The position numbers and the translations under genes were made by a program. 64,000 bases of DNA from Rapana venosa (taxonomy: Eukaryota > Mollusca > Gastropoda > Neogastropoda > Muricidae): contig CM054165.1 of NCBI GenBank assembly GCA_028751875.1, positions 23,379,170 through 23,443,169 on the forward strand, in the 5' to 3' direction. The notes below the pieces were generated by a model. That model did no database searches, was not told the origin of the DNA, and saw only the letters and a program-made list of their open reading frames with translations. Of this stretch, positions 10,945 to 58,519 are shown piece after piece (positions within the stretch are counted from its first letter, which is position 1; every line of letters begins with the position of its first letter).

Positions 10945-11194
10945 TCTGGAAGTGGCGAGGATCCGCACGGCACGCTACCTTCAAGCGCTCATTTTGGCCC
11001 CCAACTTTTTTTCTGTCAAACTCATCCTCTTGCTTACCTTTGTCACCTTCGTGTTGCTCGGGGGTCACATGACCTCCGAGAAAGTGTTTGTGAGCATCGC
11101 GGTGTACCAGGCGATCCGCGTGCCAATCACTGTCTTCATGCCCTTTGCTATACAGTCCATGTCTGAGATTCGCGTGTGCTTCGATCGTTTGCAG
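10945..11194 (+). CDS. ABCC (MRP4-like) transporter, alternative TM5-TM6 exon, copy 1
   Basis: Internal exon of 250 nt: acceptor at 10943-10944 after a T-rich tract, donor GTACGT at 11195. One base completes a split codon, then 83 codons. The start of the peptide (LEVARIRTARYLQ) matches the end of an ABCC intracellular loop. Residues 22-40 and 47-69 are hydrophobic and correspond to TM5 and TM6 of the first transmembrane domain; GG at 39-40 lies in the turn. Residues F48, R58, P66, E74, R76 and R81 recur in the other copies, and the peptide ends RLQ, as ABCC4-type proteins do before the linker to the first nucleotide-binding domain. With copy 2 this is the most canonical ABCC sequence. It has no start or stop codon of its own and needs constant exons outside the window. 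The family exports organic anions, cyclic nucleotides and conjugates across membranes; the substrate here is unknown. Confidence 0.88.
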
Positions 11195-14100
11195 GTACGT
11201 GATGGCCTTCACCTTGACCTTGACCTTCGCTGGCTTTTAACCTTTTTTTTTCTTCCATCCTCTACTATGTAGTGGTTCATTATTTTTCTTTGTCGCTGTA
11301 TATCAAAAGAGGCATGGTTTTTATATTGTTTGTTTGTTGCTGGCTTGTTTTGTTTCGTTGTTGTTGATTTGATGCTTTGTTTGTGTTGCTGCTTGTGTCA
11401 GCTTGAAAAGAGATTGGTTATTTTTTGCAAGGGTAGTTGTTCCGGCTTTTGAGATGTTGGTTTTCTTTTTCTTTTCCTTAAATGTGAATCAAAACCGGAT
11501 GAAACGCTTGCCGCTTTTTTTCTTCTTTTTTTCTTTGGAATGAATATTGCTCACGATTTTTTTTGGGTCAGATTATATCCTAGAATGAATACTGATCTTC
11601 AGAAGGCATTATGATCTATGTCACTGTCCATCTGATCTTGCAATATATATATATATATATATATATATATATATATATATATATATATATATATATATAT
11701 ATATATAGTCAACTTGAATCGAAGAGTATTTTTAAAAAAAAGTGGGGTAACTTTTTTGTTTCATTAAAAAAACAAAAACCCAACATAACTTGTTGAAAAA
11801 GTTAATTTTTATTGTTACATTTTCCCTCTTCTCTACTCCTGCTGCTAAGCCTGTAACACTGCAGGAGCATGGGTAACTTTGACCCTTTCCTTTCCCAAGG
11901 GACACTTGCCAGTTCAGTCTTCATGTGGCCGTCCTTGACTAGTTAGCAAAGAACTACTTTCTCAGTCTGGAAGTGTTGTTTATGGAAACAAAAAAGCAGT
12001 AAGTGTGAGTGGGCTTTGTGGAAGAAGGGCTGTTTTTCTATGAAGACCAGTGCTTGTGGCCTAAGCCACTGCCTTTCCTGTGTATGTGCTAGCTGTTGGA
12101 CCCTCTGCTTACAGTTTTGCGGGGTTTGTCAGGTTTTTGAAAAAAAATGGAAAAAAAATCTTGTGCTTTCTGTCCCGCTTTCTGTTTTATGATCACAGTA
12201 TTTTTTTTCCCTGTTTCTTTTCTCTGAGTAAAGGGCTGCTTCGGATTTTTTGTGTTGTTATTTCAGGTGATAATCAGCTTTGTTTTCTATATCCTCCATG
12301 TTTGTCAGAATGATCATCAGAGTTTTAATATTTGGGATGCAGGATCGTTTTTTGTTTATGGTTAGATCTAGCAGATTTGGGAAACTTTCCCTTTTTTGTA
12401 TTTTGAATGGAAAAATAAAAATAAAATTTACGTTTTACATTGGCAAACTTTGAAAACAGAAAAAAAGTAAAGGATAAAGGCATATCTAAAAAATGTTATT
12501 GATGTTCAGAAAGAGAGACGGGATTTCATATATATATTTATACACGTTTATGAGATTAACAAAGGATATTTTACTTACTCATTTTGTAAATCTTCTAATA
12601 TGAAGAAATCCAACTTTGATCTTCCCGTTTTGTGCACAATAATACTAAATGCAAGTGAGATTCTAAAAAAAATTGCAGCAAAATTGCTTCATTTACCCCC
12701 ACCCCCACCCCTCACCTAAAACGGGTTTCTCAGTCTAAGTAATGTTTTAAAAGTTTCAATTCTGATACTCGGCAGACAAACTCATCAGGCTGGAATGTGC
12801 AAGATATGGACCAGAATAAAACTCTGCAATAATTTTTTTATTTTAGTTTTTTTTCTCTTTAGAGTTTAAGAGTAAGTCCGTAACAGAAAAAAAAATGTTA
12901 TCAGATCTGTCATTCACGTTCGAATCCAATGAATTTTTGTCTGGAAGTGATCATGACTATTGGAAATCAGTGAATAATTTCTGGACTCTGTAAGGTGAAT
13001 TCCTTGAAGTACAGCCCAGCAGAAACAGCTGGTAAAAACTATCCTTATAAAGAGATGTCTCAGTATCGTTGTGGATATTTTTGTTGTTGTTGTTGCTCCT
13101 TGACTAGAGCTCTCTGAGGCTGACTAATGGTGAAAATTCACACATCGGAGTGTTTGATCGCCATTTAGGTAGCGGCATTCCATCTTCCGGGGATGATTGT
13201 GGATAGCCTTCCAGTCTTAACAATCTGTTCACAGGCAGCATCACAACATGACCACTCACTCTTTTGCTTTGCAGTATTTTGCATCATGATGATTGTATGA
13301 GTGTGTTAATATGATACCAGCAGGTCACGGTGTGTACAGTTATAATATCTAACCAAGGCAAAGGGCTGTTTCGGGACGAAAAGGCTATTCCTCTGGTTTT
13401 CCTTTTAGCAAAAGGAACAGCCTTACATCACGGTAATGCTTGCACGTCACTAACCCTTTTGTTAGAAGGCATGTTTTAACTCTGAAATTACTGATGTTGT
13501 GTTTTGTGTTTTAACTCTGAAATTACGAATGTTGTGTTGTAAACTTAAAAAAAAAACCGTCATTTTGGGAGAGAAGAAAGTTTAGTGAAACAAATGCTTA
13601 AAGATTTCAAAGAAGCTTGGGCTTATTTGGTGAATTAAAGGATGGGGAAAGTTTTGAGCAAATGAGATACTTTGAAGGCCTTAAAAGTCTTTCAAAATCG
13701 ACTTGGCGCTAATTGCTTGATAAGTTTGATGTTGTTCCCCCTACCCCCTTTCCTTTTGCCCCCACCCCAAAATACAAAACATTGCAGGATTTTTTAAGTG
13801 ATAAAGAAGAATGATTGATGCGCAAAATTTAGCATAATTTGGTAAAAGTCTAATGTAAAATCTCCCTGTATTGATCAAATAGGATCTTCTGAAAAAGAAA
13901 GGGAAAGTTAGTCATAGCTATATTATGTGTAGTTTGACTGAATAAGAGTTTTCATCGAGTATCAAGAGAAAACATTTAGTGAAAGTTGATCCAAAAGACT
14001 GTAAGACAGTTTTGGCCATTTTTTTCTCCCTAGTACAAAGCGTGGGAAGGAAGGCACCATGTTGAGAAGATATTTGATTCCTCTTGAGAAGCCCTTAACC

Positions 14101-14531
14101 TAATCTGTTTACGCCTCGTCGTGTATGACATAACCTAACAGAAACAGCCAGGGGGAAGCCTACTCATTTCTACACTGAAAATAACCTATCTTTTTACGCT
14201 GAACATAACCAATTCTTTTTATCACTAAATGGCACAACAAGCAATTAACTGTAGCAGAAAGAAAGAATAGCTGGTAGATGCGTTTCACAAAGGCATCTGT
14301 TCTGTTTATTGGCGTGTATGATTTGGTCCACTTTGTTACATTGGTCGTGTCTGTTTTTGTGGTCTTCCACAAGGAAATGAGTGGAGACTATGCTGATTAT
14401 GAGTTTATAATGTGTCCAAAGAGCTTACGATATCTTTCAAACCACAAAAAGCTAAAACAAAATCAAAATCCACCTAAAAAAAAAAACACAATAAAAATAC
14501 CCCCCCCCCCCCCCCCCAAACCCTCCAGACC
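11195..14531. other. Intron after copy 1
   Basis: AT- and T-rich, with an (AT)n run at 11642-11706 and T-runs. Short open frames show no domain. No further ABCC exon was recognised. Confidence 0.6.
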
Positions 14532-14790
14532 CTATAGTCATGTGGTTAAGACCATTTGACTTCCACCCTATGGGTTCATGAAGTCATGGATTCAGATCTT
14601 GGCAGTGGTGTTCTGTGAGTTAAGGAGAGAGAAAAAACAACTGAAGTCAGTGTGTATCTGCCTATATGGGGAGGTGCTCTACTCACAAACTTCTCATCCT
14701 GTGTGGACTTATTCTCACCGTGATTCCCAGGTGTGGTGAGTGACATGGAGTGTGTATTCTTGGTGATCCCTAAGGAATTCCCAACAAATC
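14500..14790 (+). mobile_element. SINE-like repeat (family S2 head) after a poly-C run
   Basis: A poly-C run at about 14501-14517 is followed by GTGGTTAAGACCATTTGACT and GTCATGGATTCAGATCTTGG, which resemble tRNA A- and B-box regions. The right half (CACAAACTTCTCATC, GTGATTCCCAGGTG) recurs at 36850-36950. Confidence 0.6.
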
Positions 14791-57680: not shown

Positions 57681-57689
57681 AATAAAAAT

Positions 57690-58080
57690 GAAAAATCACA
57701 GTGGAGGCTGGTCTGGAGATGCGCCTGCCTAGGAAGCAAGAAGTGCGAGTTTAATCCCCGCTGTGTCCAAACTTTACCCCTCGTCCAGTAGATCTTTAGT
57801 GGGGGTCTGGGTGTAAATCTTTCTCTCAGAAGATGATAAACCAAGGTCCCCTGTGTAAGTTGTATTTAGTGCATTTTATTTGAGCCATGGCACAAGACAC
57901 AGGCAAAATTCTGAACAACAACAACAAAACCACTCTTGTAGGGAAACAGATATACATGCACACAGGAAATTAAGAACGAAAAAAGGGGGGCTATGCTCTT
58001 GTGGTGACGCGCACTCCTCGGGTAGAGCAGCCCGAATTTCACGCAGGGAAATCTGCTGTTACTTAAAGTACTATGCAATA
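57690..58080 (+). mobile_element. SINE (family S4), head and diverged tail
   Basis: A tRNA-like head GGAGGCTGGTCTGGAGATGC with GAGTTTAATCCCCGC, then GATAAACCAAGGTCCCC, an unrelated AT-rich part, and the S4 tail again at 57990-58070 (GAGCAGCCCGAATTTCACGC). It ends 190 bp before exon copy 7. Confidence 0.65.
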
Positions 58081-58269
58081 CAATAGAACAGAATGCAAAA
58101 CAGTCCAGAGTTCAGTTTGATCAGGCAAATTGTGAACAGTTAGGTCAGAAATTTGACACGGGATTAAGCGATGACTCTTCGGTCAAAAACAGACCCCACG
58201 GAACATCTTTCCCGTATTCTGGAAGCCCAGAATGAAGTAGTTTAGCCCGCCATGCTTGATGTCGGACAG

Positions 58270-58519
58270 GCCGGAACTGAAGTGTGTGCACATCAAGAAC
58301 ATGGCGCTGGGGATGACGATTATCGTGTGGTTCTCCACCCGCCAGTTGTTTCTTCTGCCTCTGGTGGCCACCATGGTGATTCGGGGCCAGGCCATCTTAC
58401 CCAAGGAGCTGTACAGAAGCATGCTGGGCTTGACGGTCTTGGGGGACAGTATGGTGACCCGGCTCACCTACTGCCTCACATACATGGGCGACATGGCCAC
58501 CACCACGAAACGCTTGCAG
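58270..58519 (+). CDS. ABCC (MRP4-like) transporter, alternative TM5-TM6 exon, copy 7
   Basis: Internal exon of 250 nt, acceptor GGACAG ending at 58269, donor GTAATG at 58520. One base plus 83 codons, starting PELKCVHIKN and ending TKRLQ. The anchors are FLLPL (27-31), Y48, D74 and R81; position 58 is glycine instead of arginine. Hydrophobic spans are about 13-37 and 51-72. The upstream stretch lacks a good polypyrimidine tract, so the acceptor is weak compared with the other six. The long clean frame with high GC and the same phase and length argue that it is real. It is the last copy seen in the window. Confidence 0.82.

Follow-up and report, generated by a model that had tools for sequence, protein, structure and literature searches.

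Exon arrays of this kind are already known in MRP genes. In Drosophila, MRP (CG6214) has exon slots of two and eight tandem exons, and nanopore sequencing shows 9 of 16 isoforms, according to excerpts of PMC4588896. The locus described here, from Rapana venosa, resembles it in being an ABCC gene with an exon slot filled by tandem exons, but the array is larger, with ten cassettes in one slot against eight in the fly; the comparison with the excerpted account is one of exon arrangement, and the fly exons may encode the same or another part of the protein. The fly gene is moreover of the MRP1 type (excerpt of PMC2680897), whereas here ABCC4 is the closest solved relative. Dscam1 is similar in having a large array of homologous exons, one of which is chosen (PMC4588896, in the same excerpts). 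In flies, only 90 of 16,180 X-chromosome exons that were not known as exclusive show features of exclusive clusters (PMC3228551, excerpt), a rarity that favours the exclusive reading of the present exons. An oyster paper, in the portion available, uses the mutually exclusive exon term merely as an rMATS class.

Excerpts of two later papers, both citing Yue 2017, describe exon duplications that arose independently in the MRP genes of different phyla (PMC6071210) and a mutually exclusive mode of splicing for mrp-1 in helminths, annelids and molluscs (PMC7434440). Compared through these citing papers alone, those arrays are named MRP or mrp-1, whereas the present gene is ABCC4-like; the mollusc array among them may correspond to the present one, seen in another species, or may belong to a different gene. 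The abstract of the original study is said to name Mollusca among the phyla with MRP1 exon duplication. An earlier note on this DNA had called the array new. That statement is too strong, given the mutually exclusive arrays in MRP genes of flies (8 exons, PMC4588896) and the mrp-1 event cited for molluscs (PMC7434440), as excerpted. For ABCC4, no text on an exon array was found in a literature search that had Yue 2017 outside its reach.

The analysed window is the whole 64,000-nucleotide stretch, and negative coordinates are positions upstream of its start on the same contig. The locus is probably one ABCC4-like gene with ten alternative versions of a single TM5-TM6 exon, and it can probably produce ten differently lined pumps. 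We give a probability of roughly 0.87 to the reading that this is the middle of one ABCC4-like exporter gene, in which ten tandem cassettes share one slot and one is joined per transcript. The cassettes and the constant exons on either side are as follows.

-10305 to -10180, before the window start: upstream constant exon, ending at human ABCC4 residue 304
10945..11194, plus strand: cassette E1, 250 nt, canonical ABCC4-like TM5-TM6
26322..26571, plus strand: cassette E2, 250 nt
31415..31664, plus strand: cassette E3, 250 nt
34372..34621, plus strand: cassette E4, 250 nt
43679..43931, plus strand: cassette E5, 253 nt, duplicate of E6
50853..51105, plus strand: cassette E6, 253 nt, duplicate of E5
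58270..58519, plus strand: cassette E7, 250 nt, last inside the window
65332-65581, beyond the window end: cassette E8
70091-70340, beyond the window end: cassette E9
76972-77221, beyond the window end: cassette E10
from 84638, after the window end: downstream constant exon, beginning at the equivalent of residue 388

Each cassette covers human ABCC4 residues 305-387, the TM5-TM6 hairpin of the first membrane domain. The earlier note had described seven plus-strand exons for this segment, and these are confirmed, with agreeing first and last coordinates and uniform borders and phases. Seven is correct within the window; the true count is ten, with three cassettes past the window end, and this count excludes 2.5 kb at -2499 to 0 that could conceal another cassette. 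All ten have an AG acceptor, a GT donor, entry phase 2, exit phase 0 and a length of 250 or 253 nt. This grammar alone is weak evidence, since 933 overlapping candidates fit it on a single strand of 264 kb. The window contains no Walker A, LSGGQ or YAWE-type motif, and scans of it with Rfam (gathering scores) and for tRNAs returned nothing.

Homology among the cassettes was assessed with profiles. In leave-one-out runs against the 2121 six-frame ORFs of the window, each of E1-E7 is recovered at E <= 3e-5, and the best unrelated ORF across the seven runs scores 0.063. Harder splits give weaker results: with a profile of E3-E7, E1 scores 6.6e-7 and E2 only 6.7; with one of E1 and E2, E6 scores 0.0011, while E5 (0.13), E7 (0.94) and E4 (1.5) do not surpass the best unrelated ORF (0.011). 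The E1-E7 profile picks up E8 at 1.6e-16. E9 and E10 are missed by a profile of E1-E8 alone, and are found among the 933 grammar candidates (1.1e-5 and 9.3e-4, respectively) only when the profile includes both cassettes of a paralogous gene on contig C22. On the open ORF set, that same profile lists E9 (3.3e-4), and E10 is absent; E10 is tied to E9 at 5.1e-26.

When E1 is searched against the PDB, solved ABCC4 chains are matched at residues 306-386 or 387 (best E 6.9e-13), followed by ABC transporter C family member 13 (2.9e-4), member 2 (0.0044), ABCC3 (0.0053), ABCC5 (0.043) and MRP1 (0.058); the closest solved relative of E1 is ABCC4 rather than another ABCC. ABCC4 is also matched by E2 (residues 309-386, 2.8e-4) and by the seven-exon profile (residues 305-387, 5.4e-10). 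Taken by itself, E6 has no PDB match at E<=5, Pfam-A gives nothing at E<=1 for any of the seven single exons, and of 18 candidates for a full-length relative with an E6-type cassette none reaches E<=0.01. An AlphaFold2 model of E6, made with the seven window cassettes, has helices at 3-23, 28-39 and 45-83 (mean pLDDT 72.9, pTM 0.40), and these predicted helices are consistent with a TM5-TM6 hairpin. Foldseek with this model against the PDB returned 11 matches at E<=10, not one of which reached E<=0.001, and the structural comparison is therefore uninformative. Hydropathy exceeds 1.0 in both stretches of nine of the ten cassettes, E10 reaching 0.97 in the second, and is weakly discriminating, since 267 of 755 grammar candidates (cassettes included) also exceed 1.0 in both.

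Related cassettes occur elsewhere as well. In C22, a constant exon, two cassettes of the same grammar in the same intron, a linker exon and a Walker A exon follow in that order within 29.6 kb without N. One of the two cassettes, C22a, groups with E9/E10 with support of 91/87, just below the strict mark. The next C22 grammar candidate after the two cassettes scores 0.32. A further C22 ORF scores 0.015 with a twelve-cassette profile, but it was rejected as a third cassette, being 47 aa long and absent from the grammar candidates; a match in C23 was likewise set aside, as an ABCC exon without the same intron. Other contigs carry cassette ORFs of the E1 type (P0001, P0003-P0005) and of the E4-E6 type (P0002, P0006-P0008). 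A genome search with the seven concatenated cassettes found eight places, all in this array (10 candidates scored), and is not a full census, as it missed E9, E10 and the C22 cassettes.

Within the array, neighbours are mutual closest relatives: E5/E6 at 75% identity, E7/E8 at 36% and E9/E10 at 48%. All cassette pairs other than E5/E6 and E9/E10 have 7-36% identity. E5 and E6 lie in duplicated blocks:

42980..44308, plus strand: duplicated block holding E5
50116..51499, plus strand: partner block holding E6

The dN/dS ratios (NG86) are about 0.50 for E5/E6, about 0.70 for E7/E8 and 0.46 for E9/E10. For a membrane helix pair, the E5/E6 and E7/E8 values indicate weak constraint, which counts against the cassettes being used. 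They are one reason to consider that only E1, and perhaps a few others, are in use, the rest being ancient exon copies that splicing includes rarely if at all. E1 is also first in the array and nearest to human ABCC4, with 39% identity where E2-E10 have 13-25%, and exon use in fly MRP is uneven, with exon A seen 157 times and exon B never in 337 full-length reads (PMC4588896, as excerpted). Nevertheless, open frame, borders, phase and length are kept in 10/10 cassettes despite the 7-36% identity of most pairs, whereas in dead exons so divergent one would expect stops and damaged splice sites. The occurrence of E4-E6-type ORFs on other contigs and of the E9/E10 type in C22 also argues against disuse, and we regard this alternative as unlikely.

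The reading frame bears on how the cassettes would be combined. All ten join both constant exons in frame without a stop. Because cassettes are 3n+1 nt long and are entered in phase 2 and left in phase 0, leaving all of them out or joining two breaks the frame: skipping every cassette leads to a stop at the fourth codon (split codon counted), and joining two shifts the frame so that a stop follows in eight of the ten cassettes. Mutually exclusive splicing is the best reading of these sequence features. The splicing machinery would pick one cassette per transcript, perhaps according to tissue or stage, to fill the one TM5-TM6 slot between a single upstream and a single downstream constant exon. 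Dscam exon 6 is under docking/selector pairing (PMC6071210, excerpt), whereas none was detected in the present array: a coarse scan of 1500 of 5501 candidate sites, covering 500 nt on each side of every cassette in one species, found nothing above controls (the best mean was 20.2, whereas the six control sets reached 20.6-23.1).

Alternatively, the cassettes could be non-exclusive, with double inclusion or skipping producing truncated or non-transporting regulatory isoforms. E2 and E7 do remain open after another cassette, and since the introns between cassettes span 2.7-15.1 kb, there is no steric bar to joining neighbours. The early stop of the skip product and the shifted-frame stops in the other eight cassettes speak against such isoforms, which we consider very improbable.

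The one-gene reading, with a choice of TM5-TM6 cassettes, is supported by the flanks, where the earlier note had suggested looking for the remaining ABCC exons. Outside the array, on both sides and in gene order, tblastn with human ABCC4 detects exons for parts of residues 11-304, 388-613 and 819-1246, some at weak E; this search of the contig did not locate residues 614-818 or the C-terminus. The note's statement that no other ABCC exon lies between the seven cassettes agrees with the same search, which gave no convincing hit within the window, and neither ABCC gene copies between cassettes nor any other ABCC exon was found from -10180 to 84638. A second copy of the exon for residues 207-228, at -14184, was rejected as an alternative exon; this truncated piece outside the array is the only second copy of a gene exon that we noticed. 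In a genome search with the constant exons (5 matches among 8 candidates), each has one strong place, at this locus, and the upstream exon has a further one at C22 plus two weak places elsewhere. Tandem duplication is common among ABC genes, and ABC membrane-domain exons are numerous in the genome (54 of 86 scored candidates matched), but the idea that the cassettes are parts of several tandem ABCC genes, with the remaining exons overlooked, is largely refuted by the lack of other ABCC exons in that search of the interval, by the detection of exons outside it and by the single strong place of each flanking constant exon on the contig, and it has almost no remaining credibility.

If one cassette is chosen per transcript, every isoform would retain the same ATPase domains and second membrane domain as well as the constant portion of the substrate pocket, and the exchanged TM5-TM6 part should alter what the pump binds and exports. 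The likeness to human ABCC4 lies in the constant exons, the match of E1 and the identity of the constant pocket residues; the solved human chains have one TM5-TM6 sequence, whereas the present gene has ten. Ten pocket residues are named for human ABCC4 in excerpts of PMC10202912 and PMC11948813; four fall in the cassette and six in constant exons, and these six are unchanged from human ABCC4. H152, F156, F211, R946, M990, G991, Q994, W995 and R998 are all identical to human ABCC4. The four cassette residues vary among cassettes, and position 363 is charged in eight of the ten: E1 and E2 are hydrophobic, E4-E8 combine an acid at 363 with Arg 368, and E3, E9 and E10 have Arg 363. From these residues, the best reading is that the cassettes would re-line half of the substrate pocket.

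More tentatively, and with well under even confidence, we suggest that the array is a splice-selected pocket library, with a constant part identical to human and at least three cassette chemistries yielding pumps of different substrate class. On this proposal, some of the cassettes with charges in TM6 may even confer ion conduction or a function other than classical export, and the array would predate the split of the two paralogous genes.

If the cassettes are used, this gene amounts to a natural exchange experiment on an ABC exporter's TM5-TM6 hairpin, in which the same motor and the same fixed residues are combined with ten linings. Ten chimeras would reveal what share of ABCC substrate choice resides in the hairpin, at a time when human ABCC4 is being studied residue by residue. 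Pfam is blind to these exons when they are taken singly, and, again if the cassettes are used, ABC gene counts can underestimate the pump repertoire of such animals.

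The seven exons E1-E7 (all on the plus strand) are predicted alternative TM5-TM6 exons, or cassettes, of an ABCC4-like transporter gene, and their positions as reported in the earlier note agree with what we find: a tblastn search of the window with four of them returns the other three, and the borders were read.

E1: 10945-11194
E2: 26322-26571
E3: 31415-31664
E4: 34372-34621
E5: 43679-43931
E6: 50853-51105
E7: 58270-58519

In all seven, AG is followed by one codon-completing base, and the exon ends on a codon boundary followed by GT; E5 and E6 are 253 nt long, and E1, E2, E3, E4 and E7 are 250 nt. 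Pairwise protein identity is 11-36%, except for E5/E6 at 75%. In a leave-one-out search of the 2121 window ORFs, each exon is recovered by a profile of the other six (E 7.3e-31 to 3e-5), the best unrelated ORF being at 0.063. With a harder split of the window ORFs, a profile of E3-E7 recovers E1 at 6.6e-7 and misses E2 (E 6.7); a profile of E1 and E2 recovers E6 at 0.0011, with E4, E5 and E7 no better than the best unrelated ORF (0.011).

Among solved chains, ABCC4 is by a wide margin the best ABCC match to E1, over residues 306-387 (6.9e-13). E2 also matches ABCC4, and the seven-exon profile covers residues 305-387, a stretch in which two structural papers place TM5 and TM6 of human ABCC4 (PMC10202912, PMC11948813). 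E6 alone matches no solved chain and Pfam-A matches none of the seven; thus, the far cassettes are recognized through the family only.

Two other elements lie in the window.

3934-4311 and 4342-5355 (+): two ORFs in the same frame, with stops between, matching successive parts of RVT_1 (1.1e-16, 7.1e-18); reverse transcriptase remains of a retroelement, perhaps LINE-type at a guess
3096-3625 (+): short tandem repeats, in-frame translation TSYGDSTSKGDL

The window corresponds to C32:23379170-23443169 of the 2.28-Gb assembly, and the analysis extends 100 kb to either side, with negative numbers before base 1 and numbers above 64000 past the end. Searching these flanks for the remaining ABCC exons, as the earlier note had advised, with human ABCC4 sequence as the query, finds exons on both sides: upstream for residues 11-61, 64-109, 102-186, 177-208, 207-266 and up to 304 (-21.7 kb to -10.2 kb), and downstream from residue 424 onward (85.6 to 153 kb). 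No exon for residues 614-818 or the C-terminus was located with this query in the 100-kb flanks. Two constant exons border the array.

-10305 to -10180: last upstream constant exon, ending at residue 304
84638 (start): linker exon, downstream constant, missing from the human ABCC4 search and located afterwards

The constant exons end at residue 304 and resume at the residue 388 equivalent, so the array fills exactly slot 305-387 in one gene; the one-gene reading had been proposed from the window alone. Searched against the whole genome, the two constant pieces give five matches. Each has one strong place at this locus, the upstream piece has another on contig C22 (85% identity), and the remaining two matches are weak, at 44% and 49%.

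Several details of the constant part can also be recorded. A truncated second copy of the residue 207-228 exon (-14184 to -14119) runs into ATTC repeats and looks like a dead exon duplicate, and the first exon detected has its acceptor side within a tandem repeat of ~51 bp (-22119 to -21856). The Walker A exon (85643-85675) seems to end in ...GSGK, then GCAAGT, by our reading a GC-AG donor. In the NBD1 exon at 94770-94934 the Q-loop region is divergent (YTGQGPSTQHP); scanning 85.5-98 kb for motifs finds no second copy of this exon.

Three further cassettes past the window end bring the count to ten, leaving out 2.5 kb at -2499 to 0, inside the first intron.

E8: 65332-65581
E9: 70091-70340, grammar (250/253 nt, AG/GT borders, entry phase 2, exit phase 0) exactly as E1-E8
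E10: 76972-77221, grammar likewise exactly as E1-E8

E9 and E10 are both missed by a profile of E1-E8 alone; once the first cassette of a paralogous gene on C22 joined the profile, the ORFs at 70 and 77 kb topped the remaining list (E 0.14 and 0.35). With both C22 cassettes in the profile and E9 and E10 left out, 933 grammar candidates give E9 at 1.1e-5, E10 at 9.3e-4 and the best other at 0.75; over an open set of 7966 ORFs, the same profile lists E9 at 3.3e-4, and E10 is absent from the list. E9 shares 48% identity with E10 (5.1e-26) and 35% with C22a (1.5e-15). Genome-wide, seven concatenated cassettes match E1-E8 only (8 matches among 10 candidates), missing E9, E10 and the C22 cassettes, and distant copies elsewhere may exist; a query of E9 plus C22a yields four candidates, all of them matches: C22a and E9 themselves, E10, and a fourth of 0.5.

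The paralogous ABCC4-like gene (C22:51102001-51131594, minus strand; 29,594 bases read, without N) carries two cassettes within the same intron, in the order exon 207-263, constant exon, C22a, C22b, linker exon (49% identical to the main-gene linker) and Walker A exon.

C22a: C22:51124907-51125156, minus, 250 nt, phases as in the E array
C22b: C22:51111644-51111893, minus, 250 nt, phases as in the E array

In a 19-row tree with 16 inner branches, of which two are strictly supported and 11 open, C22a groups with E9/E10 (support 91/87), E5 with E6 (95/95) and E7 with E8 (85/97). This is most simply read as one or more cassette types having arisen before the two genes separated. Other contigs carry related ORFs (P0001-P0008; P0005 and P0008 partial, P0006 and P0007 near copies of each other), four of them E1-type and the other four E4-E6-type, so at least two cassette types are present elsewhere.

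All ten cassettes join in frame to both constant exons. The upstream exon supplies AG of the split codon; once completed, the codon reads Ser with E1 or E2 and Arg with any of the remaining eight. Skipping every cassette leads to a stop at the fourth codon (split codon counted), and in the shifted frame that follows another cassette a stop is met in 8/10, E2 and E7 staying open. The inter-cassette gaps are 2.7-15.1 kb; thus, the predicted exclusivity would not be due to crowding of neighbouring splice sites.

E5 and E6 lie within a 1.3-kb duplicated block whose flanks are 80-81% identical, the exons themselves being 83% identical without gaps. By NG86, dN and dS are 0.158 and 0.318 for E5/E6, 0.586 and 0.832 for E7/E8, and 0.394 and 0.852 for E9/E10. 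The pairs are under mild constraint, a level compatible with diversification and with partial disuse alike.

Residues of the human ABCC4 pocket are named in the two structural papers (PMC10202912, PMC11948813), one of which lists F156, F211, F324, L363, L367, F368, R946, Q994, W995 and R998. All six of these residues that lie in constant exons are identical here, and none of the ten cassettes keeps the human set at the other four, in a residue register that is an assumption at such low identities. The sole alignment gap falls in the TM5-TM6 loop, so the numbering runs gap-free forward from the exon start to reach 324, and back from the exon end to reach 363, 367 and 368.

Cassette residues at positions 324/363/367/368
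E1: N/V/V/F
E2: Y/V/I/M
E3: R/R/E/T
E4: T/D/F/R
E5: N/D/G/R
E6: N/D/A/R
E7: W/D/T/R
E8: W/E/G/R
E9: H/R/S/V
E10: Y/R/S/V

Position 363 is charged in 8/10 cassettes, and Arg occupies 368 in five.

Exclusive exon clusters of two and eight, with very uneven use, are described for fly MRP (PMC4588896), and MRP exon arrays of independent origin in several phyla (PMC6071210) and exclusive splicing of mrp-1 in molluscs (PMC7434440) are cited. This kind of array is therefore already known, and the novelty claimed in the earlier note narrows accordingly. As far as the literature searched shows, the new features are that the gene is of ABCC4 type, that a single slot has ten cassettes, that a paralogue has two, and that the pocket is partly fixed and partly exchanged. 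Such varied pocket residues among the cassettes would suggest varied substrates.
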